Assembly: GCF_006740685.1 (NCBI RefSeq)
Contig: NZ_CP035425.1
Coordinates: forward strand, 969,687 to 1,033,686
DNA from: Candidatus Nitrosopumilus sp. SW
Lineage (GTDB): Archaea > Thermoproteota > Nitrososphaeria > Nitrososphaerales > Nitrosopumilaceae
Direction: 5' to 3'
Length of the DNA stretch: 64,000 bases
Under the pieces are notes generated by a model. That model saw nothing but the letters and a program-made list of their open reading frames with translations, was not told the DNA's origin and made no database searches. Below are positions 41,381 through 57,395 of this stretch, one piece after another. The position numbers were made by a program, and so were the translations under genes. Each line of letters begins with the position of its first letter. The stretch's first letter is position 1.

Positions 41381-42358
41381 ATGTCTGAAATTAGATTTGC
41401 TATTCCTAAAGGAAGTTTGGAAGATGCTACATTCAAGCTCTTGGAGAGATCTTGGACTAAGGTGAATCGCAAGAGTAGAACCTATAGGGTATACCTAGAT
41501 GATCCAAAAATTGTTGTAAAAATGCTAAGACCTCAAGAAATCCCAACTTTGGTAAGCGAGGGATTGTATGATGTGGGAATTACCGGCAAGGATTGGGTAG
41601 GTGAAACAAAATCCGATGTAGAACCAATTTTAGATTTAGAATATGGAAAAATTAGACTTGTTATTGCATTTCCAGATAATTACCGATACAAGAATCTAGA
41701 TGAAATGATTGCAGATTATGCTAAAAAGAAAAAGACTTTGAGACTTTCTTCTGAATATCTTACAACAGCATCTAGTTTTATCAAGAACTGCAAGTCTTAC
41801 AAGAAATATTTTGGAAACAAAGATCCACAAATTGTTACTCCTTGGTTACGTATTGGAACAAATAAGTCTGTTCAAATTCATCTATCATTTGGTGCCACAG
41901 AAGCAAAACCTCCAGAAGATGTAGATGCAATAATGGATGTAACTGAAACTGGCACTACCCTCAAACAAAATAAACTAAAGATTGTAGATGAGGTTCTTAC
42001 TTCAACTGCGCACTTGATAGTCAACAAGAAATCCCTCAAAGACAAAGCAAAACGAGAAAAGATTTTTGATATTGTTACTTTGATGCGAGGAGCTGTACAT
42101 GGAAAAAAATATCTGCACATTTACCTGAATGTAGAAGAGAAAAATCTGCCAAAATTATTGAAACAAATACCTTCATTGAAAAAACCTACCATTAGTCCAC
42201 TAAGTGAATCTGGTTGGTATGGAGTCAATACTATAATCAAAAAATCAGATTTCCACAAAATAATTCCAAAGCTACGAAAGATTGCACAAGGATTAGTAGT
42301 GCATGAACCACGACAGATACTGGAACTTGAGGAGATCAAACGTGACGAAGAAAATTGA
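41381..42358 (+). CDS. hisG: ATP phosphoribosyltransferase, long form
   Basis: First step of histidine synthesis, joining ATP and PRPP. The 325 residues contain the two catalytic lobes (IRFAIPKGSLEDATFKLLER, GLYDVGITGKDWVGE, and the PRPP loop VDAIMDVTETGTTLKQNKLK) and a C-terminal regulatory domain (about 245-320) with the ACT-like fold that allows His feedback inhibition. It is therefore the self-sufficient long form and needs no HisZ. It heads the operon and overlaps hisD by one base. Confidence 0.95.
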   Translation: MSEIRFAIPKGSLEDATFKLLERSWTKVNRKSRTYRVYLDDPKIVVKMLRPQEIPTLVSEGLYDVGITGKDWVGETKSDVEPILDLEYGKIRLVIAFPDNYRYKNLDEMIADYAKKKKTLRLSSEYLTTASSFIKNCKSYKKYFGNKDPQIVTPWLRIGTNKSVQIHLSFGATEAKPPEDVDAIMDVTETGTTLKQNKLKIVDEVLTSTAHLIVNKKSLKDKAKREKIFDIVTLMRGAVHGKKYLHIYLNVEEKNLPKLLKQIPSLKKPTISPLSESGWYGVNTIIKKSDFHKIIPKLRKIAQGLVVHEPRQILELEEIKRDEEN

Positions 42359-43620
42359 TGAAAATCATTTCAATAAATAACACTGAGCAATTTCTAAAGA
42401 AAATAGCCACAAAAAACTCTTCAAAAAACCAGAAAATTGTAGAATCTATTCTCAAGAATGTAAAAAATAATGGTGATGCTGCGGTAAAAAAATATGAAAA
42501 AAAGTTCGGCGCAAATATTTCATCATTAAGAGTATCACAACGTGATATTGCTAGTGCATACTCTAAAGTTTCAAAAGAAGACATCTATGCAATTAAACTT
42601 GCAAAATCAAGATTATCAAAAGCCGAACTTGCAGTACGACGTCAATTCAAAGATATAGTTATAAAATCAAATGGAACTAAAATTTCAAAATCTTTTGTTC
42701 CCATAGACAGTGTAGGATGTTACGTACCTGGTGGTGCAGCAAGATATCCAAGTTCTGCTATAATGTCTGTAACTCCTGCTAAAATTGCAGGAGTTAAACG
42801 AATTGTGGTAGTTTCCCCACCGAATTCTTCAGGAAATATTGATCCATTAACAATTGTAGCATCTGATATTTGTGGTGCAACTGAAATTTACAAAACTGGT
42901 GGTGCGCAATCAATTGCAGCACTAGCATATGGTACTCGTTCTATCAAAAAGGTAGACAAAATAGTTGGACCTGGTGGTGCTTTTGTTACTTTGGCAAAAT
43001 ATCTAGTCAGTAATCTTGTATCTATTGATATGATGGCAGGACCAACTGAATTAGGTGTTGTAATTGATTCAGCAACAGATGCTGATCTTGTAGCATTAGA
43101 TCTTATTTCACAAGCAGAGCACTCTGCTGACACATTCTGTTATGCTCTAACTCCATCAAATTCAATTGCAAAAAAAATACAATTGAGTGTAAACTCTAAA
43201 CTAAAAGATATTCAACGTGCAAATATTGTAAAATCTAGTCTTGAATCAAATGGATTCATTGGTGTTTGTAAGACATCTGGAATCATTGATATTGTTAACA
43301 ATTTAGCTCCTGAACACTTGGAGATTATCAGCAAAAATACAAAAAAATGGAGCAAAATCAAGAATCCAGGTTTGATTTTATCAGGAAAAAACAGTCCTTC
43401 TTCGGCTAGTGACTATTTGTTAGGCTCAAATCATATTTTACCTACAAATGGATTTGGAAAAACTAGAGGATCTTTGTCCGTATTGGACTTTGTCAAGCTT
43501 CTAACTAAAATAGAAACTAGCAGAAAAGATTTACAGAAAATATCAAAATCTATGAAGAATCTAACTTTAGCAGAAGGATTGCCAAATCACTATGAAGCAG
43601 TACGGGGTAGATTAAAATGA
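42358..43620 (+). CDS. hisD: Histidinol dehydrogenase
   Basis: Last two oxidations to histidine, zinc- and NAD-dependent. The 420 residues carry the family signature IDMMAGPTELGVVIDSATDADL (zinc and substrate region), SQAEHSADTFCYALT, VGCYVPGGAARYPSSAIMSVTPAKIAGV, GGAQSIAALAYG and NLAPEHLEI. The normal length. The start ATG overlaps the hisG stop (TGATG). Confidence 0.96.
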   Translation: MKIISINNTEQFLKKIATKNSSKNQKIVESILKNVKNNGDAAVKKYEKKFGANISSLRVSQRDIASAYSKVSKEDIYAIKLAKSRLSKAELAVRRQFKDIVIKSNGTKISKSFVPIDSVGCYVPGGAARYPSSAIMSVTPAKIAGVKRIVVVSPPNSSGNIDPLTIVASDICGATEIYKTGGAQSIAALAYGTRSIKKVDKIVGPGGAFVTLAKYLVSNLVSIDMMAGPTELGVVIDSATDADLVALDLISQAEHSADTFCYALTPSNSIAKKIQLSVNSKLKDIQRANIVKSSLESNGFIGVCKTSGIIDIVNNLAPEHLEIISKNTKKWSKIKNPGLILSGKNSPSSASDYLLGSNHILPTNGFGKTRGSLSVLDFVKLLTKIETSRKDLQKISKSMKNLTLAEGLPNHYEAVRGRLK

Positions 43621-44687
43621 AAAACACGTGGTATACAAAAAAATTAGATGACTATGCAAAACTAGGTGGCTATAAAAAACCTGAAAAGTTTGATGATGTT
43701 TTAAAATTGGATTCTAATGAGAATTTTGTAATAAATAAAAAATTTCAACAAGATGTCATTTCTTATGCTAAATCCAATTCTGATGTTAGAGAATATCCTT
43801 TGGGTGGAGTTGAAAAACTAGTCTCAAAACTATCAAAATATCTTAAAGTTCCTGAAAATATGATTGGTGTTGGAAATGGCTCTGATCAAATTTTGGATTT
43901 GTTTTTAGCAAATTTTGCATCAAAGAAGACTAAAATTTTGACATCGGATCCAACATTTGGGTTCTTTGAGGAAAGATGTAAATTATATTCAATACCGTGC
44001 ACCAAAATTCCTTTTTCATCTGATATGAAATTAGATATTGGAAAATTTGATACTAATCTAAAAAAATGTCAAATACTCTATTTGGATTCACCAAACAATC
44101 CAACTGGATTTCAATTCTCAAAAACACAACTAGAATCTTTAATCAAAAAATTTGATGGATTAATAATCATTGATGAGGCTTATGGAGAATTTGGTGATTC
44201 ATCAACTGTTTCATTAACAAAAAAATATGAAAATCTAATTGTTGTCAAAACATTTTCTAAGGCTTTTGGTCTTGCAGGTCTTCGTTTAGGATACTTTATT
44301 GCAAATAAGAAAATAGTTGAGGTATTCAATCAGGTTTTACAATATCCATACCCACTCAATACTCTTGCAATTGAGGCTGGAATTGCTTCTCTAGATAAGG
44401 TAGACCAAATGAAAGAAGCCTCTGAAATTATCAAATCTGAACGAAAGAAAATCATTGAGAATTTGAGCAAATATGATGCCTTTACCGTCTTTGATTCCAA
44501 GGCAAATTTTGTACTATTTGATGCTAAGGGCGCAGACAAACGCGTATTTTCTGCACTAGTTGAGCAAGGAATCTCTATACGCAAACTTGGTAAGATTGGT
44601 TCTCACCCAGGATGTCTACGTGTTACTGTTGGAACCAAAGAAATGAATTCTAAATTCCTTTTAGCAATACGTGATCTATTGGGATAA
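43617..44687 (+). CDS. hisC: Histidinol-phosphate aminotransferase
   Basis: PLP enzyme converting imidazole-acetol phosphate to histidinol phosphate. The 356 residues show LDSNENFVINKK, REYPLGGVEKLVSKLS, IGVGNGSDQILDLF, LDSPNNPTGFQFSK, IIIDEAYGEFGDSS and the PLP lysine in TFSKAFGLAGLRLGYF. It overlaps hisD by four bases (ATGA). The paralogue at 16990 belongs to the cobalamin operon. Confidence 0.95.
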   Translation: MKNTWYTKKLDDYAKLGGYKKPEKFDDVLKLDSNENFVINKKFQQDVISYAKSNSDVREYPLGGVEKLVSKLSKYLKVPENMIGVGNGSDQILDLFLANFASKKTKILTSDPTFGFFEERCKLYSIPCTKIPFSSDMKLDIGKFDTNLKKCQILYLDSPNNPTGFQFSKTQLESLIKKFDGLIIIDEAYGEFGDSSTVSLTKKYENLIVVKTFSKAFGLAGLRLGYFIANKKIVEVFNQVLQYPYPLNTLAIEAGIASLDKVDQMKEASEIIKSERKKIIENLSKYDAFTVFDSKANFVLFDAKGADKRVFSALVEQGISIRKLGKIGSHPGCLRVTVGTKEMNSKFLLAIRDLLG

Positions 44688-44691
44688 AAAA

Positions 44692-45612
44692 TTGAATAAT
44701 CAAAAGTTTGATTCTATAATATTTGATTGTGATGGAGTACTAGTAGATATTACACAATCTTATGACAAAACAATTGATAAGACATGTAAGTATGTACTCA
44801 AAGAATTTGCAGGAATTGATTCTATCGTAATTGATCACAAGATTATTGATGGATTTAAGGCATCAGGTGGATTCAATGATGAAGTTGATTTGGCATATGC
44901 TTCAGTGTTATCCTTGTATGCGGCAAACAAACTAAACAAAGAACCCTCAGAGTTTATCTATGATGTAATTTCAAATGTAGATAAAACTGGAATACGCTCT
45001 GTTCAATCATATCTTGAATCTCTTTGTGATATTTCTGAATTTTTATCTAAATTAGGTTCATTAAATGATCGACACAATAATCCTGTTTATTCTATATTTG
45101 ATCAACTGTTTTTTGGACCAGAATTATATGAGAAATTATTTGAAAAACAATCAAAGTTTTCTGAAGACGGAATGATTTCAAATGACAAAGTGATTTTATC
45201 TGTATCCTTATTGAAAACTTTACAAAAAGAATTTGGAGAAAAACTTGCAGTTGTAACCGGTAGGGGAATTGAATCCATTCGTTATTCACTAAAAGACATG
45301 CTCAATTACTTTGACACAAAAAGCTCTGCATTTTTAGAAGATGAACCTAGAGAACTAGCAAAACCAAATCCTGCTACATTAATTCGTGCCATACAATCAA
45401 TGAAATCAAAAAATTGTCTGTATGTGGGTGACTCTATGGAGGATTACATGATGGCAAAAGATGCAACACAAGCAGGGTATCCAACAAAATTTTGTGCAAT
45501 TGTAGGCACAAGCACAAGTCCTAAAGATAGACGTAAACTATTTGCTGATTCAGGCGTAGAGATGATTCTTGAATCAATAAATGATATTCCGAAGGTATTA
45601 AATTTAGTTTGA
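44692..45612 (+). CDS. HAD-family hydrolase, candidate histidinol-phosphatase
   Basis: A 306-residue haloacid dehalogenase-type phosphatase. Motif I is [11 protein letters not shown] (nucleophile and acid Asp), motif II is VVTGRG, motif III is the Lys in [11 protein letters not shown], and motif IV is [14 protein letters not shown] large helical cap (about 15-180) covers the site. It sits between hisC and hisB, exactly where a histidinol-phosphatase gene would be expected, and no other such gene is in the operon. The best start is TTG 44692, four bases after hisC; GTG 44671 is an alternative. The function is inferred from context. Confidence 0.8.
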
Positions 45613-45640
45613 TAAAGTATCATTATTCTCAGGTGATAAA

Positions 45641-46228
45641 ATGAAAAAACGCTCTAGCAAAATCAAACGTGAAACAAAAGAAACTGATGTTTCAGTAGCA
45701 GTCAACATTGATGGCACTGGAAAAACTAGTGTATCAACTGGCGTAAATTTTGTTGATCACTTGATTACTGCATTTGGAAAACATGCAATGTTAGACTTGG
45801 CTGTAAAAGCAAAATCAAAAGATAACATCGTACACCACTTGATTGAAGATACTGCAATTACAATTGGAAATGCTATGGACAAAGCATTAGGAAATAGAGT
45901 TGGTGTTACTAGATTTAGCTATGCATCTGTTCCAATGGATGAATCATTAGCAGAAGCATCAGTAGACTTGGTAAAAAGACCCTTTTACAAGTTGACTTTA
46001 TCTATAAAGAGAACAAAGATTGAGGATGTGTCAAAGGAAGATCTTGAACACTTTTTCCAATCTTTATTGCAGAATCTAAACAGCTGTATTCACCTTACTG
46101 TAAAGTATGGAGACAATGATCACCACAAAGTTGAGGCTGCAATGAAATCTCTAGCAGTAGCATTTAGAATTGCATGTTCAAAAGATTCAAAACAAAAAGG
46201 AATTCCTAGTACAAAAGGCGCAATGTAA
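45641..46228 (+). CDS. hisB: Imidazoleglycerol-phosphate dehydratase
   Basis: Manganese-dependent dehydratase, monofunctional HisB. The 195 residues have the duplicated fold and metal-binding motifs [45 protein letters not shown] and [19 protein letters not shown]. Bifunctional bacterial HisB carries a fused phosphatase, which is missing here, consistent with a separate enzyme such as the preceding HAD protein. The stop overlaps the hisH start by one base. Confidence 0.96.
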
Positions 46229-46830
46229 TGACAAAGATTGCAATATTTGATTACGGAGCTGGAAATATTTTCAGTCTCAGAAATGCATTAGAAAAACAAG
46301 GGGCAACAGTAGAAGTACAAACCCAAGTTGATAAGTTAAAAGGATATGATGGAATTTTTCTACCTGGTGTTGGAAATTTTGATCCTGCTATACAAAGTAT
46401 CAATCGTGATTCAGGAAACTTTCTTGATATTGTAGGTGATACTCCAGTCTTTGGAATCTGTTTAGGCATGGAGATGTTTTTTGATAAGAGTCAAGAAGGA
46501 AAAGAAAAAGGCCTTGGAGTAATTGGTGGTGATGTTATCGTTTTACCTAATACCCTAAAGGTTCCTCACATGGGATGGAACGCACTTGAAATAAAACAAG
46601 AAAACAAAATTCTTGAAGGTGTAAAAAACGGTTCGTGGGTATACTTTGTGCATTCGTATAGGGCAAATCCTACAGCATCTGATGTTATAGTTGCAGAATC
46701 TGATTATGATGTTAAAGTTCCAGCTATAGTTCAAAAGGATAATTTTTTTGGAACTCAATTTCATCCAGAAAAATCAGGTGATGTTGGTGGGTTAATGTTG
46801 AAGAATTTCCTGAGAGAGTGCTCAAAATGA
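46228..46830 (+). CDS. hisH: Imidazole glycerol phosphate synthase, glutaminase subunit
   Basis: Class I glutamine amidotransferase that passes ammonia to HisF. The 200 residues contain IFDYGAGNIFSLRNAL, FLPGVGNFD, the nucleophile in GICLGMEMFFD, and the His-Glu pair in GTQFHPEKSG. The start overlaps hisB (TAATG) and the end overlaps hisA by four bases. Confidence 0.96.
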   Translation: MTKIAIFDYGAGNIFSLRNALEKQGATVEVQTQVDKLKGYDGIFLPGVGNFDPAIQSINRDSGNFLDIVGDTPVFGICLGMEMFFDKSQEGKEKGLGVIGGDVIVLPNTLKVPHMGWNALEIKQENKILEGVKNGSWVYFVHSYRANPTASDVIVAESDYDVKVPAIVQKDNFFGTQFHPEKSGDVGGLMLKNFLRECSK

Positions 46831-47537
46831 AAATAATTCCTGCAATTGACTTGATGGGTGGGCAAGTAGTTCGACTATACAAAGGAGATCCAAAACAAAA
46901 AACCGTGTACAGTAATGATCCTCTATCTATTGCCAAAAAATGGCAAAAAGCAGGTGCTGATATGCTACATGTTGTTGATTTGGATGCTACAATTGGTACT
47001 GGTAGTAACTTAGACTTGATTGAACAAATTACTAAAGAATTGTCTATTCCTGTAGAAGTAGCTGGTGGTTTACGAAATGAAGAAATCATTGATAGGGCAA
47101 TTTCTTTTTCAAATAGAGTTGTGATTGGTACTTTGGCATTCAAAGACAAAGAATTGTTACAACGTATTGCCAAAAAATATGACTTTTCAAAAATTGTTAT
47201 TTCAGTAGATCACATAGATGGGTTCATTGTCACACATGGCTGGCAAGAGAGTACAAAAATCTCCTTGATTGATGCAATAAATGAATTTGTAGATATGGGA
47301 TTCACTGAATTTTTACTTACCAATGTGAGTAAAGACGGAACACTGGAAGGACCTGATTTGGAATATTTAGAAAAAGCATGTAGTATACAAAATACAAACG
47401 TTATTGCAAGCGGTGGTATATCAAATATTGACGATGTATCTGATGTGAAAACAAAAAATGCTTTTGCAGTAATTTTAGGTAAAGCATTGTATGAAAACAA
47501 AATTTCAATTGAGGAGGCAAAACAACTTGTTAACTAA
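46827..47537 (+). CDS. hisA: ProFAR isomerase
   Basis: (beta-alpha)8 barrel isomerase of phosphoribosylformimino-AICAR phosphate. The 236 residues show [20 protein letters not shown] with catalytic Asp, [35 protein letters not shown] and [12 protein letters not shown] (phosphate site). ATG 46827 is chosen over GTG 46818 because the family begins at MKIIPAIDL. Its end carries the ribosome-binding site of hisF. Confidence 0.95.
47512..47518 (+). promoter_or_regulatory. Shine-Dalgarno sequence of hisF inside hisA
   Basis: GAGGAGG lies eight bases ahead of TTG 47527, still within the last codons of hisA. It decides the otherwise ambiguous hisF start and implies coupled translation. Confidence 0.7.
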
Positions 47538-48327
47538 ACGAATTATTCCCTGCCTTGATGTAGATAATGGTCGAGTTGTAAAAGGACTTAATTTTGAATC
47601 CATTAAGGATGCAGGGGATCCTGTTGAACTTGCTGCTAAATATAGTAAAGATGGAGCCGATGAATTAGTATTTTTAGATATTACTGCATCTCAAGAAAAA
47701 AGAAAAACAATCAAAGAACTTGTATCTAATGTAGCCAAAGTAATTGATATTCCATTTACTGTGGGTGGTGGAGTGAATAGTATGGATGATGCACGAAATA
47801 TCTTACTCAGTGGTGCAGACAAAGTGGGAGTAAACACCGGAGCTGTAAAGAATCCTCAACTGTTAACTGAACTTATGACTCTATTTGGAAAACAATGTGT
47901 CGTAATAGCTATAGATGCAAAACGAAATTATTCTGAGGATTCTGCCAAAACAATGTTTGAAGAAAACGGAAAAAAATTTTGGTTTGAAGTTTTCATTTAT
48001 GGTGGTAAACAAGGAACTGGACTGGATGCAATTGAATGGGCAAAAAAGGCAACAGAACTTGGTGCTGGAGAAGTACTGCTAACTAGCATAGATAAAGATG
48101 GAACTAAAGATGGATATGACGTTCTACTTACTAAAAAAATAGTAGATACTGTTTCTGTGCCTGTCATTGCTTCTGGTGGCTGTGGAAAACCTGAAGATAT
48201 GTATGAAATTTTTGAAAAATCCGATGTTGATGCTGCTCTGGCAGCTTCAATTTTTCACTATGAGAATCAGTCAGTAAATCAAGTCAAAGAAATTCTTCGA
48301 GACAAAAATATCTCTGTACGATTATAA
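47527..48327 (+). CDS. hisF: Imidazole glycerol phosphate synthase, cyclase subunit
   Basis: Barrel enzyme that uses HisH ammonia to make imidazole glycerol phosphate and AICAR. The 266 residues begin [20 protein letters not shown] (catalytic Asp), then [46 protein letters not shown] and [16 protein letters not shown] (second catalytic Asp), ending [14 protein letters not shown]. Start TTG follows a strong GAGGAGG; an ATG at 47491 would add 12 unsupported residues. Confidence 0.96.
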
Positions 48328-48349
48328 GGAAATTTTGTAATGAATAACC

Positions 48350-48679
48350 ATGAATAAAACAATTGATGAAATTGATTTTGAAAAAAGTGGTGGTCTTGTG
48401 CCTGTTATAGTACAAGATGCAAATACTAAAGAGGTCCTTACTCTTGCTTATTCAAATAAAGAATCATTAGAACTTGCAAAAAAAACTGGTAAATCTTGGT
48501 TTTACAGTCGTTCTAGAAATAAACTTTGGATGAAAGGAGAGGAATCAGGTAATATTCAAGAGATTAAAGAAATTTTGGTTGATTGTGATTCTGATGCAAT
48601 AATTTATCTTGTTGAACCTTCAGGTCCTGCATGTCATACTGGTGAAAGAGTTTGTTTTCATCATTCACTTGAAAAATGA
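48350..48679 (+). CDS. hisI: Phosphoribosyl-AMP cyclohydrolase
   Basis: Zinc and magnesium enzyme opening the purine ring of PR-AMP. The 109 residues show [59 protein letters not shown] and TGERVCF, including the metal-binding Asp cluster and the zinc cysteines. It is monofunctional: HisE (PR-ATP pyrophosphatase) is neither fused nor next to it. It ends the operon, converging with the next gene with one base between the stops. Confidence 0.95.
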
Positions 48680-49465: not shown

Positions 49466-50680
49466 TTGGCTAGAACATCATTACAATGTAGAGAATGTAA
49501 AAAACAGTATGAAACTGCATTCAAGTATGTCTGTGATGACTGTTTTGGTCCTCTAGATGTAAAATATGATTTTCCCCAAGTCTCAAAAGACACATTTTCT
49601 AATCGTGAACAAACGTATTGGCGATATTTTGAATTACTTCCAATAGAGGACAAATCAAACATTGTAAGTATTGATGCCGGTATGACCCCTCTTACAAAAG
49701 CTGAAAACCTTGGTAAAAAATTAGGCCTAAATAATTTGTATATAAAAAATGATTCAGTAAATCCAACATTTTCATTCAAAGATAGACCTGCTGGTGTTGC
49801 AATTTCAAAAGCAAAGGAATTTGGATTATCTGCTGTTGGTTGTGCATCTACTGGGAATTTGGCATCTGCAACTGCAGCACATGCTGCAAAAGGTGGATTT
49901 CCATGTCATGTGTTTGCACCAAGTAATATTGAGATGGCAAAGATTACCCAGGCACTATCTTATGGTGCAAATTATGTTGCAGTTGATGGAACATATGATG
50001 ATGCAAATAGAATTGCAGCTCAAATTGGAGATTCTAAAGGAATTGGAATTGTAAATATTAACATGCGTTCACATTATGTTGAAGGTTCTAAAACTTTAGC
50101 ATATGAAGTTGCAGAACAACTAGATTGGAGTGTACCTGATCAGTTAATTGTTCCAGTTGGAAGTGGTGCAATGCTTAATGCAATTTGTAAGGGGTTTGAA
50201 GAACTACAAAGTATTTCATTGCTTAATGATGTATCAAATATGCATATGATTGCTGCACAACCACACGGATGTGCCCCAATTGTTGATGCATTTAAGAAAA
50301 ATTCAAAAGAAGTAATACCTGTTGAGAATCCTGATACTGTTGCAAAAAGTCTAGCAATAGGTGATCCTGGTGATGGAAGATATGTTCTCAAAAGATTAGA
50401 ACAATACAATGGATTTGCAGAAGAATGCGATAACAAAGAAATTTTGGATGCAATACTCCTTTTGGCAAAAACCGAAGGAATTTTTACAGAACCTGCTGGA
50501 GGGGTTTCAGTTTCTGTATTGCAAAAGATGGTTGAACAAGGTAAGATTGACAAAAATGATAAGGTTGTATGTTATGTCACTGGAAACGGTTTGAAAGCAA
50601 CTGAATCTATCATGGAAGTTTTACAAAAACCAAAAGTCCTCAAAGCAGACATTTCAGAAGTATCGGCGGTAGTCAACTAA
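49466..50680 (+). CDS. thrC: Threonine synthase (PLP fold type II)
   Basis: Converts O-phosphohomoserine to threonine; the fold is shared with cysteine and homocysteine-forming synthases. The 404 residues begin with a zinc-binding-type motif SLQCRECKKQYETAFKYVCD, then IVSIDAGMTPLTKAENLGKK, the PLP lysine in NPTFSFKDRPAGVAISKAKE, STGNLASATAAHAAKGGFP, PVGSGAMLNAICKG and TEPAGGVSVSVLQKM. Start TTG 49466, with GAGG 11 bases upstream. It overlaps the next gene by one base; that gene encodes a MoaD/E1 fusion, which raises alternative sulfur-related roles. Confidence 0.9.
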   Translation: MARTSLQCRECKKQYETAFKYVCDDCFGPLDVKYDFPQVSKDTFSNREQTYWRYFELLPIEDKSNIVSIDAGMTPLTKAENLGKKLGLNNLYIKNDSVNPTFSFKDRPAGVAISKAKEFGLSAVGCASTGNLASATAAHAAKGGFPCHVFAPSNIEMAKITQALSYGANYVAVDGTYDDANRIAAQIGDSKGIGIVNINMRSHYVEGSKTLAYEVAEQLDWSVPDQLIVPVGSGAMLNAICKGFEELQSISLLNDVSNMHMIAAQPHGCAPIVDAFKKNSKEVIPVENPDTVAKSLAIGDPGDGRYVLKRLEQYNGFAEECDNKEILDAILLLAKTEGIFTEPAGGVSVSVLQKMVEQGKIDKNDKVVCYVTGNGLKATESIMEVLQKPKVLKADISEVSAVVN

Positions 50681-52011
50681 TGGCAAATATCACATTTACA
50701 ATTCCTTCAGTATTAAATCAAAGCGGTGGAGAAAAAAAAACAGATATCACTGCTGATTCTCTACAGGATGCATTTACTAAAATCTCCGAATTAATGGGTG
50801 ATGATTTTAAGAGACGAGTCTTAGAATCTGACGGTACTCCACGTTCTCTAATTAACATCTACATTAATGGTAAAAATGCAAAATTTTCTTCTGGTATGAA
50901 AACTTCCCTTAAAGATGGTGATGAAGTTTACATTTTACCTGCAGTGGCTGGAGGTTCTGAAGAACTTTCTACAAAAGAACTTGATAAATTTTCTCGACAA
51001 GTTATGCTTGAAGAAATTGGTTATGGAGGACAATTAAAATTAAAAAATGCAAAAGTTTGTGTAGTTGGAACTGGTGGTTTAGGACACCCAATAATTTCTA
51101 GATTGGCAACAATGGGGGTTGGAAATTTACGAATTATTGATAGGGATGTGATTGAATTATCAAACTTACATAGACAAATAATGTTTGATGAAGATGATGT
51201 TGGTCAAGTAAAAGTAGAAGTTGCCGCAAAAAAACTACAAAAATTAAATCCAGATTGTAACATTGAAGCTTTAGCTGTTTCAATAAATGATTATACTGCA
51301 TTAGAAGTTGTTGAAGGATGTGATGTTGTAATTGATGCACTTGATAGTGTTAATGCGAGATATGCATTAAACAAAGCATGTGTAAAATATAATATTCCAT
51401 TTGTTACAGGTGCTGCAGTAGGAACCTCTGGACAAGCTTTTACTGTCTTGCCAAAAAAATCTGCATGTTATTTTTGTATGTTTCCTGAATTAAATGAGGA
51501 TACCATGCCAACATGTAGTATTGAAGGTGTTCATCCTCCTATACTTTCTATTATCGGTGCAATTGAAGTTGCAGAAGCTGTAAAAATAATTCTTGGAAAA
51601 AAACCAAATCTCTCTGAAAGAATTTTACATGTTGATTTAGAAAATCTTGATTTTAACAGTACTAGAACATTTAGAGCTGATGAGTGTCCAATCTGTGGAA
51701 CGGGAAAACTTGAAGTTGTACAAAAAGAAGAACTAATTTTAGAAGAATTGTGTGGGCGAAACAGAGGAAAGAGAACTTACTCAATAACTCCAACTGATAC
51801 TTTTGATCTTGATGTTGATGAAGTTACTAGCATTGCAAAACAAAAAGGGTTCATAGTTGATAATCAAGGAGATTTAGGGTTGTCCCTGAGAACTAATGAT
51901 TTGTCTGTAAGCTTTATGATGAAAGGTTCTGCAGTTGTAGTTGGACCAAAAGATGAGAATGATGCAATTTCACTATACAAAAGTCTCTTAGGCAAAGAGA
52001 TCAAAGCCTAA
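50680..52011 (+). CDS. Ubiquitin-like (MoaD-type) domain fused to E1-like adenylyltransferase (MoeB/ThiF)
   Basis: A 443-residue fusion. Residues 1-92 are a beta-grasp MoaD-like domain (FTIPSVLNQSGGEKKTDITA, INIYINGKNAKF, LKDGDEVYILPAVAGG) ending in Gly91-Gly92. The E1 part follows directly: RQVMLEEIGYGGQLKL, P-loop VVGTGGLGHP (130-137), RDVIELSNLHRQIMF, catalytic Cys279 in PTCSIEGVHPP, and zinc cysteines 263/266 and 336/339. A C-terminal domain (LCGRNRGKRTYSITP to LLGKEIKA) is typical of archaeal ThiF-like proteins. Such E1s adenylate the Gly-Gly tail for sulfur transfer. Here the tail is internal, so either it is cut, or the domain is a regulatory or docking module. Confidence 0.88.
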   Translation: MANITFTIPSVLNQSGGEKKTDITADSLQDAFTKISELMGDDFKRRVLESDGTPRSLINIYINGKNAKFSSGMKTSLKDGDEVYILPAVAGGSEELSTKELDKFSRQVMLEEIGYGGQLKLKNAKVCVVGTGGLGHPIISRLATMGVGNLRIIDRDVIELSNLHRQIMFDEDDVGQVKVEVAAKKLQKLNPDCNIEALAVSINDYTALEVVEGCDVVIDALDSVNARYALNKACVKYNIPFVTGAAVGTSGQAFTVLPKKSACYFCMFPELNEDTMPTCSIEGVHPPILSIIGAIEVAEAVKIILGKKPNLSERILHVDLENLDFNSTRTFRADECPICGTGKLEVVQKEELILEELCGRNRGKRTYSITPTDTFDLDVDEVTSIAKQKGFIVDNQGDLGLSLRTNDLSVSFMMKGSAVVVGPKDENDAISLYKSLLGKEIKA

Positions 52012-52200: not shown

Positions 52201-52226
52201 TAACTTTGAAGAAAAATGTCAATAAC

Positions 52227-55200
52227 ATGAATAACGAAATAGGACGTAAAATAACTAGTCTTACATTAATGACAATTATGGTTGCCGGTGGACTAACATT
52301 TGCAGCTCCAGGTGTAATGCCTGCTGCATTTGCAGCCAACGCCAACCTATTTGTTTCCGCAGAAAACTCACAGTTTGATAACTACATGTCAGGACCTCAA
52401 GTAATTGAGGTCGTCGTAATTGACAGTGATATCAATGATACCGATGAAGCAAAAGGTGAACCAGACGTAACTGTCAACGGTAAGGTCCTGAGAATGGTCC
52501 AAGCAGTTGATGGTAACTGGTATGGTTACTTTGCAGATAGAGATATGGCATTAATTGCCGACTCTACTGCCACAACATCAGGTTCAGGATTGGACTTTGG
52601 TGTATTTTGTGCAGCTTCTTCTGGTAGCACTGTATTGGGATTCTCAACAACTGAAACAGACGGTATTGCACTACCAATTACAGTTGCAAACGCAACAGCA
52701 ACTGGTAACGGTACCGCAACTGGAAGTTCATCAGGTGGCACAATTTCCACAACATGTGCTGCTAACACATTAGCTGCATCAACAACTAATGGAACTAACA
52801 ATGTTGTAAGAGAAGCAAAAGATCCAGTAGCACAATCAGGTTCCGTTAACAGAGGTCAAATTGATCTAGGTGACGGCGATGGTGTATGGCCTTTCGTTCA
52901 ACTCTATCAATTAAACCCAACAGGTAATGTTGTCATACAGTACAACAAAGGTGGTGGTGTTCAATCAACAACACTTACTTTTGATACTGTTGATCAATTT
53001 GCCGAATTGACTTTAGATAGAGCTGTATACCCAAGAATATCACAAGTACATGCAACAATTACTGACTTATGGTTAAACATTGACCCAACTGATGAAGACT
53101 CTTGGACATTTGCTACCAATACTGGAAACTCTTCCAATATTGATACATTTTACCAAGTATTCGATGAAAACGGTGCTTCTGGTGGAAGCGCATTAACCCT
53201 GAAAAACACACTACCAAACTTGATGTGTGAAGATAATTGTGTATTAACATTAAATGTTGATGCTCAAAGTTCTGGCACAGCAGTGGTAACTATTCAGGAT
53301 AACGGCGATTCAATCCTTGCCCAACTAAACTCTACTGCTAGTGTCAACAATGCATCTGCATTTGGTGTCACAGCAGAAACTGATGTGTTAGGTACAGGTT
53401 CCATCCCAGTAACCATCACCGAACAAGGTCCAAACAGTGGTGTATTTGGTACATATGATGAATCAGATGTATCAGTACTAGAAATCACAAGTGACGCAAA
53501 GAGGGGAACCTCCGCATCACTTGACTACAATGAAACACCTCAAACTATCCTTGTAGGATTCTCCTTTGCTACTATTGATATACAGCCAATTGATGACGAA
53601 TGGACCTCTGGTGAAGAGATTCCAGTAGTTGTCGTTGATGCTGATCAAAACAAAAACAGCAGAGCAGATGAAGACTTAGACTTAAACAACCCAGACGTAA
53701 CTTTGATTCCAGCACTCAGAACTGGTGATCCATTCACCATTGATGAGGGTGGAACTCCTAACATGATCTTTACCAATGGTACAAATGATGCAGACAGTAT
53801 CTTCGATATTGCATCTCTATCATCACCAGTAGGTAACTTCACACTCACAATCAATGTAACTGGATTCACCAGTGCAACCAACGTCACTGTAACTGAATCT
53901 GTTGATGCATTCAGCAAGAGGTTAATCGCTTCTCAGACTGCCAACAGTTCATCAACATTTGATGTTGACTTTGCAATCATTGACTTAGGAAGTGCAACTA
54001 TGGAGACCATAAAAGAAACCGTAGTTGATGAAGACAACACTACTGTTGGCTTCAACTTCCTTAACTATGATGTTAGATCATTAGGTGCAGACACAGTAAG
54101 TATCGCATTGCTTAACACCACAGGAAATATCCTTCCATGGGTTAACAACGATACAAGAAATGTTGATAAAAACAATGCAATATTGTTAGTCAACAATTCA
54201 ACTGATTCTCAGGATTACGTTGATTTGAACAATGCAGTATCTGATGCTATTTATGGTTCTACCACAACTGATAGTTCCGTAAACGTTGGATTTGCAATGT
54301 ACTTCACAGGTGTCGATGACCTCGCCGCCAAAGAAGTAATCGTAATTGACTTCTTCTCATTTGGTTTCAGTGATGATGGTGTGCAATCTTCTGAAAGATT
54401 TGCAAACCAAATAATCAGAATTGAAGCTGAAGAAACAGGTGACAACACAAGTACCTTCAAAGGTTCACTTGAGTATGTCATGGTTAACCAAATTAACATA
54501 CAGGATGCCGCTACCTTTGCTGGCATCACACCAATCGCAGATGATCCTTCATTCATTGTAATTGAGGATCTTACTGACGAAGATGCACCAAGAGTCAACT
54601 ATAATGACTTAGGTGCAGATGGTGTTGTAACTCCTGTATCTGATCAAGAAGAAGCACCAAGTCATTCTGGTGTTGTATCTTTAGATTCTGATTCTTACAA
54701 GATTGCTGACACTGTAACAATAACTGTTGAAGACTTAGATCTTAACGTAGATTCTGATCTTGTCGATATCTTTACTGTTGTTTCTGATAATACAAAAGCA
54801 ACAGATGATAACGTCGGTTCTGCCACAACTCAAAGTTTGAGTTTTGGTGAACTCGGTAGATTATTAGATATCACATTTGATGATGTTATATGGTCAACTC
54901 CTGACGGTTCAAATGCTTCTGCAACTGGTAATGACAGTAACACTTGTGCTACTGAATTTAGCAATGCAGGCATAACTGATACCGGACTTGCTGCAACTGG
55001 ATTTACTCTAGTTGAAACAGGTAAAGCAACTGGTAAATTTGTTGGTGATTTCCAAATCCCATCAAAATGGTGTAGAGTTTCTGATTCTACAACAACACCA
55101 CTTACTTATGCAGGTGACCTAGAAACCACAACTGGACTCGATATCGAAGTTAACTATGTTGACTTTAGAGATGCATCTGGTGAAATTGTCGAAGTCGGCG

Positions 55201-57395
55201 ATTCCGCAGGTGTAAGAGCCAATACTGGTTCAGTTAGTCTCGATAGAACTGTCTACCCAGTACCATTTGGTACCGTAGGTGAATCTAACGCAGCTGCTAA
55301 CTCATCTCCAAATGGAAGATCAGTATTCCCAATTCACGCCACAGGAATCAGTAGCACTATTGATTCCAGTGAAGAATTACCTTCAGGAGATCTAACTATT
55401 CACGTCAGAATTAACGATCCAGACTTTGACGTAAACCCATCTGGTGAAGATGTAATGAACCAAGATGATGCACTCAAAATCTCTGTAATCAGAGGTTCTG
55501 ATGTAGTTGTCTTAGGTTATGCAGGCGCTTCAGAAAGAAACACCGGATTAATTGATGTTGGTGGTAACAATGGAACCATCTCAAACATCAGAAGCTTCGG
55601 TGAAATTGATGAAATCGCACCAGATGCCGGTATTTACGAATTGGATGTTTCAATTAAATTCACCGACGGTCCAGCATCAGCACAATGTAACAGCCATAAC
55701 ACCAAGTATACCGCATTAGACGGTACTACTGGTACAGCTGATACAGACAGATTTGATGCCGCTGCACCTTCTGGCCAAGAATTCTGTATCTTACAAGGAG
55801 ATATTCTCCAAGTAGAATACACTGACCCAGCTGATGCATCCGGTGATCCAAATACTGTTACTGATTCTGCAACATTTGACCTAAGAAACGGTGTATTACA
55901 ATCTGACAAATCCGTATACATTATCGGTTCAGACATGATCTTGACACTCATTGAGCCAGACTTTGATCTTGACAATGATAGTGCTGAGACTTATGACTTG
56001 GACTTGATCGAATGGGACTCTGATGCCGCAACCACAACTATGGGTAACAAAGGTGTGACCGGCGCAGCAGCTGCATTTGACCCAGAACCAACAGACTTTA
56101 GAGAAACAGGTGACTCTACTGGTATCTTCCAGATTGTTATCGAAATCCCTGAAGAACTTGATGGTGATAAGTTAGAAAGAGGAGAAGAAATTATCCTCGA
56201 GTATACTGACTGGGGTCCATCCGGATCTGATTATGTAGGAGATGAAGATGAAGATGTCAACTTGACAATCTACACTTCAAACTTCGGAGCAACTGTAGAA
56301 CTTGACCAAAAAGTATACACATGGACTGACAAAGTCTACATTACCATTGTCGCACCAGATCACAACTTTGACAGTGACCTAGTTGACGAAATCGGAGAAA
56401 CTGATAATGACCCAATTAAGGTCTCTACCAGAGGATTCGATCTTGACAACTACAAACTCGTCGAGACTGGTACAGACACAGGTATCTTCACTGGTGAAGT
56501 AATCCTCACAGGATTTACTGCCCATGATGCTGATGGTGATGGTGACACTGGCGATGTAACCGGTACCACAAGTGGTAGCGGTCCAACAGATGGTCTCTTG
56601 GCCACTGATGATGATGACGGACTTACTGTCTCCTTTGAATTCTCAGAGGATGAAACAATTGTAGGCTCTGCCCTTATCAGATGGAACATCGGTGAAGTCC
56701 AATGGCTTGAGGCAAGCTATCCAGCTAGCGGAACAGGTGTTGTAAGAGTAATTGATCCAGACATGAACTTAGATCCAGAAGCAGTCGACAACTTCGAAGT
56801 CGACGTGTGGTCTGACTCCGATGCCGGAGGTATTGACCTTACTGTAACTGAGACTAATGAGGCAACCGGAATCTTTGAGGGAACTGTGTTCTTCACAACC
56901 CTTGATGAATCATCTGGTCACAGACTCAGAGTTTCAGAAGGTGACACTGTCACTGCAGAATATGAGGACAATACACTACCTGATCCATACACAACTGCAG
57001 ATGAACTTGATATTACTGCCACTTCACTAATTGGCACTGTAGTACCACCTCTTGAGAGAGCACCAGCTGCTAACTTGAGAACCGTTGATGCATTCGGTAA
57101 CAGCTTAGATTCTGTTTCCGTTGACCAACAGGTACAAATCAGCGCTGACTTAGCAAATGGTCAGGATAGAGAGCAATCATTCGCATACTTGGTACAGATT
57201 CAGGATGCAAACGGTGTTACAGTCTCACTAGCATGGATTACAGGTTCATTATCTGCTGGTCAATCATTCAGCCCAGCTTTATCATGGATTCCAACTGAAG
57301 CAGGAACATACACTGCTACTGCATTCGTTTGGGAGTCTGTTGATAATCCTACGGCATTATCACCACCAGTTAGTACAACTGTCAACGTAAGTTAG
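52227..57395 (+). CDS. Large S-layer-like surface protein
   Basis: A 1722-residue secreted, very acidic protein. Residues 1-35 are a signal peptide (ITSLTLMTIMVAGGLTFAAPG, cleavage after PAAFA). The mature chain has repeated Ig-like modules with shared motifs: a VDSDINDTDEA-type Asp-rich loop, VSLDSDSYKIADTVTITVEDLDLNVDSD, LDRTVYPVPFG and ETGDSTGIFQIVIEIPEE. Its Asp/Asn-rich loops probably bind calcium, and many NxS/T sequons suggest N-glycosylation. Size, composition and position match the major S-layer protein of Nitrosopumilus maritimus. Codon use is distinct, with many C-ending Asp, Asn and Thr codons, as expected for very high expression. The final 60 residues lack a membrane helix. Confidence 0.88.
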   Translation: MNNEIGRKITSLTLMTIMVAGGLTFAAPGVMPAAFAANANLFVSAENSQFDNYMSGPQVIEVVVIDSDINDTDEAKGEPDVTVNGKVLRMVQAVDGNWYGYFADRDMALIADSTATTSGSGLDFGVFCAASSGSTVLGFSTTETDGIALPITVANATATGNGTATGSSSGGTISTTCAANTLAASTTNGTNNVVREAKDPVAQSGSVNRGQIDLGDGDGVWPFVQLYQLNPTGNVVIQYNKGGGVQSTTLTFDTVDQFAELTLDRAVYPRISQVHATITDLWLNIDPTDEDSWTFATNTGNSSNIDTFYQVFDENGASGGSALTLKNTLPNLMCEDNCVLTLNVDAQSSGTAVVTIQDNGDSILAQLNSTASVNNASAFGVTAETDVLGTGSIPVTITEQGPNSGVFGTYDESDVSVLEITSDAKRGTSASLDYNETPQTILVGFSFATIDIQPIDDEWTSGEEIPVVVVDADQNKNSRADEDLDLNNPDVTLIPALRTGDPFTIDEGGTPNMIFTNGTNDADSIFDIASLSSPVGNFTLTINVTGFTSATNVTVTESVDAFSKRLIASQTANSSSTFDVDFAIIDLGSATMETIKETVVDEDNTTVGFNFLNYDVRSLGADTVSIALLNTTGNILPWVNNDTRNVDKNNAILLVNNSTDSQDYVDLNNAVSDAIYGSTTTDSSVNVGFAMYFTGVDDLAAKEVIVIDFFSFGFSDDGVQSSERFANQIIRIEAEETGDNTSTFKGSLEYVMVNQINIQDAATFAGITPIADDPSFIVIEDLTDEDAPRVNYNDLGADGVVTPVSDQEEAPSHSGVVSLDSDSYKIADTVTITVEDLDLNVDSDLVDIFTVVSDNTKATDDNVGSATTQSLSFGELGRLLDITFDDVIWSTPDGSNASATGNDSNTCATEFSNAGITDTGLAATGFTLVETGKATGKFVGDFQIPSKWCRVSDSTTTPLTYAGDLETTTGLDIEVNYVDFRDASGEIVEVGDSAGVRANTGSVSLDRTVYPVPFGTVGESNAAANSSPNGRSVFPIHATGISSTIDSSEELPSGDLTIHVRINDPDFDVNPSGEDVMNQDDALKISVIRGSDVVVLGYAGASERNTGLIDVGGNNGTISNIRSFGEIDEIAPDAGIYELDVSIKFTDGPASAQCNSHNTKYTALDGTTGTADTDRFDAAAPSGQEFCILQGDILQVEYTDPADASGDPNTVTDSATFDLRNGVLQSDKSVYIIGSDMILTLIEPDFDLDNDSAETYDLDLIEWDSDAATTTMGNKGVTGAAAAFDPEPTDFRETGDSTGIFQIVIEIPEELDGDKLERGEEIILEYTDWGPSGSDYVGDEDEDVNLTIYTSNFGATVELDQKVYTWTDKVYITIVAPDHNFDSDLVDEIGETDNDPIKVSTRGFDLDNYKLVETGTDTGIFTGEVILTGFTAHDADGDGDTGDVTGTTSGSGPTDGLLATDDDDGLTVSFEFSEDETIVGSALIRWNIGEVQWLEASYPASGTGVVRVIDPDMNLDPEAVDNFEVDVWSDSDAGGIDLTVTETNEATGIFEGTVFFTTLDESSGHRLRVSEGDTVTAEYEDNTLPDPYTTADELDITATSLIGTVVPPLERAPAANLRTVDAFGNSLDSVSVDQQVQISADLANGQDREQSFAYLVQIQDANGVTVSLAWITGSLSAGQSFSPALSWIPTEAGTYTATAFVWESVDNPTALSPPVSTTVNVS

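Follow-up and report, generated by a model that had tools for sequence, protein, structure and literature searches.

A threonine synthase paralogue and a sulfur carrier fused to its E1: a probable MetM-MetO-type homocysteine synthase in Candidatus Nitrosopumilus sp. SW

In the genome of the archaeon Candidatus Nitrosopumilus sp. SW, a gene annotated as threonine synthase is followed by one that joins a ubiquitin-like sulfur carrier to an activating enzyme, and the locus raises the question of what such a pair might make. We analysed a window of 64,000 nucleotides, in which the two genes lie on the forward strand, as do all features described below unless stated otherwise, at 49466..50680 (404 aa, here called ThrC2) and 50680..52011 (443 aa). 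The first base of the fusion ORF is the last base of the thrC2 ORF, at the junction CTAATGGC. A run of histidine biosynthesis genes (41381-48679) lies directly upstream of the pair, with one opposite-strand gene between, and a large 1729-aa secreted, S-layer-like protein is encoded on the same strand after the fusion gene (52206-57395).

The fusion protein, defined by its ORF and by domain matches, comprises a sulfur carrier, an E1 and a TBP-like domain. Residues 1-92 (50680..50955) form a CysO/MoaD-like beta-grasp carrier domain, for which M. tuberculosis CysO is the best solved-structure match (3dwg, E=3e-13); the alignment covers residues 3-92 and runs up to the final Gly, and Amycolatopsis CysO (4n6e, E=2e-11) matches the same residues to the same point. 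The domain ends in Gly91-Gly92 (50950..50955), the predicted site of thiocarboxylation, with predicted cleavage before Ser93. The segment that holds this tail, residues 89-109, is predicted to be flexible, since its pLDDT lies below 50 in the full-length model. Residues 97-343 (50968..51708) make up a ThiF/MoeB-type E1, supported by Pfam ThiF over residues 104-337 (E=8e-75), by ThiF 1zfn (E=3e-47) and by a Foldseek match to the ThiS-ThiF complex 1zud (E=4e-25). All hallmarks of these enzymes are present, namely the glycine-rich ATP loop, the catalytic Cys and four zinc Cys, and the alignment with E. coli ThiF covers the loop as well as Cys279 and the zinc cysteines. Cys279 (51514..51516), equivalent to ThiF Cys184, and the zinc pairs Cys263, Cys266 (51466..51477) and Cys336, Cys339 (51685..51696) do not vary across an alignment of 21 proteins. 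The genome encodes no other E1. A first-pass annotation had described a beta-grasp domain ending in Gly91-Gly92 and joined to a complete MoeB/ThiF-type E1, in a gene overlapping thrC by one base, and the CysO, ThiF and cysteine matches and the ORF boundaries bear it out. Beyond that description there is a third, C-terminal domain with a conserved ELCGR..GKR motif (51733..51993). Pfam gave no match in the C-terminal 100 residues; most of the top Foldseek matches of the modelled domain (pLDDT 83) are TBPs, with probabilities of 0.98-1.00 but E-values of 0.015 or worse. The three-domain architecture, as modelled, is in line with the Ubl-E1-TBP protein reported for Thaumarchaeota (PMC2948915).

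A search of 398 genomes from the phylum found the full-length fusion in 54 of the 63 genomes of its own family, in six of a second family and sporadically elsewhere. Gly-Gly is kept in every fused homologue read, and this conservation, together with the distribution over the two families, argues against a chance fusion. In every locus read that has this carrier, the gene immediately before it is the same thrC paralogue, save where the contig stops. Gly-Gly conservation and thrC adjacency, which the first-pass annotation had named as points to compare among homologues, are thus both seen. The tail is always internal in fused forms, often with few residues between Gly-Gly and the E1; in other archaeal families the carrier is a free protein with Gly-Gly as its very C-terminus, and a separate E1 comes after it, sometimes with one gene between. 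Two Nitrosocaldus-type genomes (G192 and G346) carry a frame break in the linker that splits the fusion 8 and 15 residues after Gly-Gly. We rejected their unfused state as an ancestral form, as it represents a frame break in a variable linker. In another genome, G268 (L034:2007-3470), the linker past Gly-Gly has grown to about 40 residues and is Ser/Asn-rich.

The neighbouring PLP enzyme matches PALP (E=1e-72) and is one of two proteins in the genome that pass the TIGR00260 threonine synthase cut-off, the other being ThrC1, encoded near 92 kb. A further ThrC candidate at C1:81202 was rejected as IlvA-like. ThrC1 retains the bacterial ThrC motifs (NPSGSFKD, STGNT and VNSVNPFRIEGQKT), and all three motifs of the canonical set (NPTGSFKDRGM, STGNT, NSxNPxRxEGQKT) differ in the window protein. 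Its PLP-lysine motif is NPTFSFKDRPAGV (Lys105, 49760..49798; canonical NPTGSFKDRGM), its substrate-loop motif STGNLASAT (49847..49873; canonical STGNTSAS) and its anion-loop motif VNINMRSHYVEGSKT (50051..50095; canonical VNSVNPxRxEGQKT). SFKDRP, STGNLA and NxRxxYxEGSKT are common to all carrier-linked archaeal ThrC2 proteins. The altered positions, in T. thermophilus numbering, include 58, 64, 88, 155, 160 and 188, several of which we take to bind the substrate phosphate. In a tree of 90 proteins, ThrC2 forms one branch (SH-aLRT support 100) apart from canonical ThrC (98), and Streptomyces members fall within the same branch as the window protein. The label "threonine synthase", which the first-pass annotation had also used, is thus probably a misnomer for the window paralogue, and the canonical enzyme that lies elsewhere in the genome is an addition to that annotation. 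In eight family members that have no fusion, ThrC2 is missing too and ThrC1 is kept (a ninth, G390, in which the contig ends inside ThrC2, was placed outside the eight); this joint loss is weak evidence alone, because the genes are adjacent and a single deletion is possible. The same eight genomes have no E1 match yet keep a Cgi121-fused carrier, which ties the E1 to ThrC2.

Gene context links ThrC2 to carriers, sulfur and homoserine well beyond this family. A scan for the ThrC2 motifs, with one genome per species, gave 80 loci from archaea and several bacterial phyla, with a readable ThrC2 in 77. Of these 77, 59 have a Gly-Gly carrier gene no more than 1.5 kb downstream of ThrC2, and three more loci run off the contig. 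Two genomes of one archaeal family have an unfused operon in the order thrC2, carrier, homoserine dehydrogenase, E1, sulfite reductase and TusA-like gene; in a third, from another family, thrC2, carrier, homoserine dehydrogenase and E1 are followed by CysH-like, Sat-like, sulfite reductase and TusA-like genes; a fourth genome with an unfused operon is without homoserine dehydrogenase. These dehydrogenases were confirmed with Pfam, in one case also by an NCBIfam equivalog over its cut-off. In Geoglobus, Sat-like and E1 genes flank ThrC2 and carrier, with sulfite reductase nearby; Nitrospirota loci have the order ThrC2, carrier and canonical ThrC; and in one Chloroflexota genome ThrC2 has homoserine dehydrogenase and canonical ThrC in its vicinity. 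In the Chloroflexota locus L246 (4131-11787), ThrC2, carrier and E1 with a SAM riboswitch lie beside CysM, E1, carrier, CysM and JAMM genes, and here two carrier-dependent amino-acid systems adjoin. We also looked for JAMM genes in the ThrC2 operons of the 80 scanned loci; the sole one found pairs with CysM.

Searches with Rfam placed a SAM riboswitch upstream of ThrC2 in 9 of 9 actinobacterial loci of a first batch and in 17 of 31 loci outside the phylum, in Actinomycetota, Chloroflexota, Acidobacteriota and Armatimonadota (about 1 kb upstream in the last); none was found in the window or in seven other archaeal loci. Such control agrees with a role in methionine supply rather than in that of threonine or cysteine. 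In Streptomyces halstedii the gene order is ThrC2, carrier, cold shock and GroEL, and SCO4295-4296 of S. coelicolor are presumably the cold-shock and GroEL genes. On the strength of the S. halstedii order we take SCO4293-SCO4294 to be ThrC2 and carrier. Profile similarity places both SCO4293, a putative threonine synthase, and SCO4294 among the sulfate assimilation genes, with which they are co-expressed (PMC2267785). MetM is described as a Streptomyces homocysteine synthase that converts O-phosphohomoserine to homocysteine, with a carrier gene, metO, and a SAM riboswitch (Hasebe et al. 2024, via PMC12172450).

In family searches, the genome gave weak matches only, and no true member, for the MetY/MetB family, and HcyBio, MetE and MetX were each not found; a MetH-type homocysteine methyltransferase domain and sulfite reductase are present. 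With the known homocysteine synthases missing from the genome, the homocysteine step is unfilled, unless by ThrC2 or an enzyme of unknown kind. No known homocysteine synthase was found in the ammonia-oxidising archaea tested, and most keep the methionine synthase domain and sulfite reductase. The eight family members without ThrC2 and fusion still have MetH and, mostly, sulfite reductase. Five deep archaeal genomes with a carrier-E1 locus also carry HcyBio, and a MetM-MetO route would be redundant there. We do not regard the absence of MetX as a decisive sign of an O-phosphohomoserine route, as about 14 actinobacterial ThrC2 genomes have strong MetX matches. A CysM/CysK-like enzyme adjoining a TusA/SirA-like sulfur carrier (L114:6159-7396), about 8 kb from the sulfite reductase, is likely to be the cysteine branch.

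Domain anatomy, paralogy, linkage, the sulfur and homoserine context and bacterial SAM-riboswitch control are the observations from which our reading starts: thrC2 and the fusion gene quite probably constitute a MetM-MetO-type homocysteine synthase whose carrier is fused to its E1. The first-pass annotation had proposed a sulfur-carrier amino-acid system with O-phosphohomoserine as homocysteine precursor, and the proposal gains support from the linkage of the ThrC2 clade to Gly-Gly carriers, the riboswitches upstream of bacterial ThrC2, the homoserine dehydrogenase and sulfite reductase of the unfused archaeal operon, the lack of a known homocysteine synthase in the genome and the published MetM-MetO pathway. 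An E1 adenylates a free C-terminus only. In the scheme that we envisage, the fusion would first be cut after Gly92, and the E1 part, by analogy with its family, would adenylate the freed carrier tail and yield a thiocarboxylate. ThrC2/MetM would then use the carrier sulfur to convert O-phosphohomoserine to homocysteine, the substrate, product and sulfur source being putative for the archaeon. Homocysteine would go on to methionine and SAM synthesis, and threonine would be supplied by the separate canonical ThrC1.

The proposed cut has parallels: MoaX of M. tuberculosis is cleaved between Gly82 and Ser83 and requires this cleavage for activity (PMC4326299), and a D. radiodurans JAMM cuts MoaD-MoaE (PMC8832034). 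Two JAMM proteins with intact HSHP...S..D metal motifs are encoded in the genome (L115:7754-8146 and L113:6968-7366), one of them with a sub-cut-off match to desampylase. Both genes lie away from the thrC2-fusion pair and are conserved across the family; since relatives that lack the fusion encode them too, neither serves it exclusively, and a link is hypothetical. A tentative extension, to which we give somewhat less than an even chance, is that carrier and E1 are made in equal amounts as one ubiquitin-precursor-like chain, cut by a JAMM at Gly92-Ser93, and serve as the sole homocysteine route in ammonia-oxidising archaea. A second carrier domain of the genome has His-Gly-Gly at its end and continues into a Cgi121 (KEOPS) domain (L148:4901-5674; C1 about 1128900-1129673); its counterpart in genome G209 (L154:4355-4609) stands alone as a protein of 84 aa with a C-terminal Gly-Gly. 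The carrier-Cgi121 fusion, with Gly-Gly likewise buried, is already reported (PMC2948915).

Two other enzymatic roles for ThrC2 were considered. It could make cysteine from O-phosphoserine with sulfur from the carrier, as CysM does with CysO, a role suggested by the carrier domain, which is nearest CysO, and by those deep archaeal lineages in which HcyBio already covers homocysteine. We consider this improbable: the genome has its separate CysM/CysK-like enzyme beside a TusA-like gene, ThrC2 is linked to homoserine dehydrogenase and ThrC and is under SAM-riboswitch control, and one Chloroflexota locus carries ThrC2 and carrier alongside a complete CysM-carrier-JAMM set. There is a similarly small chance that ThrC2 is an ordinary second threonine synthase, with the E1 fusion, as the sole E1 of the genome, serving tRNA thiolation, molybdenum cofactor or other pathways. 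The name and score of TIGR00260 would agree with this, as would Microcystis ThrC, which is 51.6% identical to MetM, lies beside a carrier gene and produced threonine in vitro (PMC12172450); given this homologue, MetM-family members may be bifunctional. The Microcystis gene is without a SAM riboswitch, and this feature does not strictly define the MetM-MetO type. Against a second threonine synthase, a canonical ThrC1 is present, the ThrC2 motifs differ, genomes that have lost ThrC2 have lost the E1 as well yet retain the other carrier (UBL-Cgi121), and bacterial ThrC2 is controlled by SAM riboswitches.

The least probable alternative, and in our view a very unlikely one, concerns the carrier: its beta-grasp domain might serve in docking or regulation only, its internal tail never being activated. 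The first-pass annotation had raised this option, and it would account for the position of the tail, which lies within the chain in every fused form and often precedes the E1 by only a few residues, and for the lack of a recognisable protease gene adjoining the pair in the window. It is disfavoured by the invariant Gly-Gly, which docking does not need, by free relatives whose last two residues are Gly-Gly, by the two related genomes in which the fusion is split in the linker and by MoaX, which has the same GG-Ser junction and is active only once cleaved there (PMC4326299).

If thrC2 and the fusion do form a MetM-MetO-type homocysteine synthase, the pair provides a candidate enzyme for the missing homocysteine step of ammonia-oxidising archaea, brings into the archaea a pathway recently found in bacteria and supplies a likely role for a carrier-E1 fusion first recorded in 2010. 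It also suggests that a widespread protein group annotated as threonine synthase is misnamed, and the fusion offers a clean test case for release of a ubiquitin-like tail buried within a fusion.

The Ubl-E1-TBP fusion of Thaumarchaeota, recorded in 2010 (PMC2948915) and again, as a MoaD-MoeB fusion, in cluster 356.1 in 2024 (PMC11237513), is the same kind of protein as the window fusion; the passages available from these two sources give no function or thrC link for it, and what is new here relative to them is the neighbour's identity, which ties the fusion to a MetM-like partner. In MoaX (MoaD-MoaE) of M. tuberculosis, a carrier is likewise joined by Gly-Gly to its partner with Ser next (PMC4326299), but that partner is MoaE (molybdopterin), whereas in the window fusion it is the E1. 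The CysO-CysM-Mec system of Mycobacterium, in which CysO is sulfurated by MoeZR (PMC3227635), supplies the closest solved carrier domain, and its thiocarboxylate goes to a fold-type II PLP enzyme, as proposed for the window. It differs in that the window PLP partner is ThrC-like rather than CysM, the operon has no JAMM and the E1 is without rhodanese. HcyS-HcyF-HcyD of Wolinella, with MetY, is reportedly a homocysteine system in which the PLP partner is an O-acetylhomoserine sulfhydrylase. The operons of row 4e in Iyer 2006 (PMC1779556) likewise have an O-acetylhomoserine sulfhydrylase as PLP partner. They combine carrier, rhodanese-less E1, SirA/TusA-like and sulfate-reduction genes, a set common to them, to the Wolinella system and to the window type; unlike them, the system described here has a ThrC paralogue as partner, in a genome without O-acetylhomoserine sulfhydrylase. 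MetM-MetO of Streptomyces albulus (Hasebe et al. 2024, via PMC12172450) is a close counterpart by clade, carrier, riboswitch and pathway, and on these grounds we file the window pair as a variant of it. Both have a ThrC-like PLP enzyme adjoining a sulfur-carrier gene. The window ThrC2 shares its clade with Streptomyces members, S. albulus MetM itself not being in the tree, and those members have a SAM riboswitch upstream, as reported there for MetM-MetO. The window Gly-Gly carrier likewise adjoins thrC2, starting on its last base, but its Gly-Gly is internal; unlike MetM-MetO, the pair is archaeal, no SAM riboswitch was found in the window, and the carrier is fused to its own E1 and a TBP-like domain.
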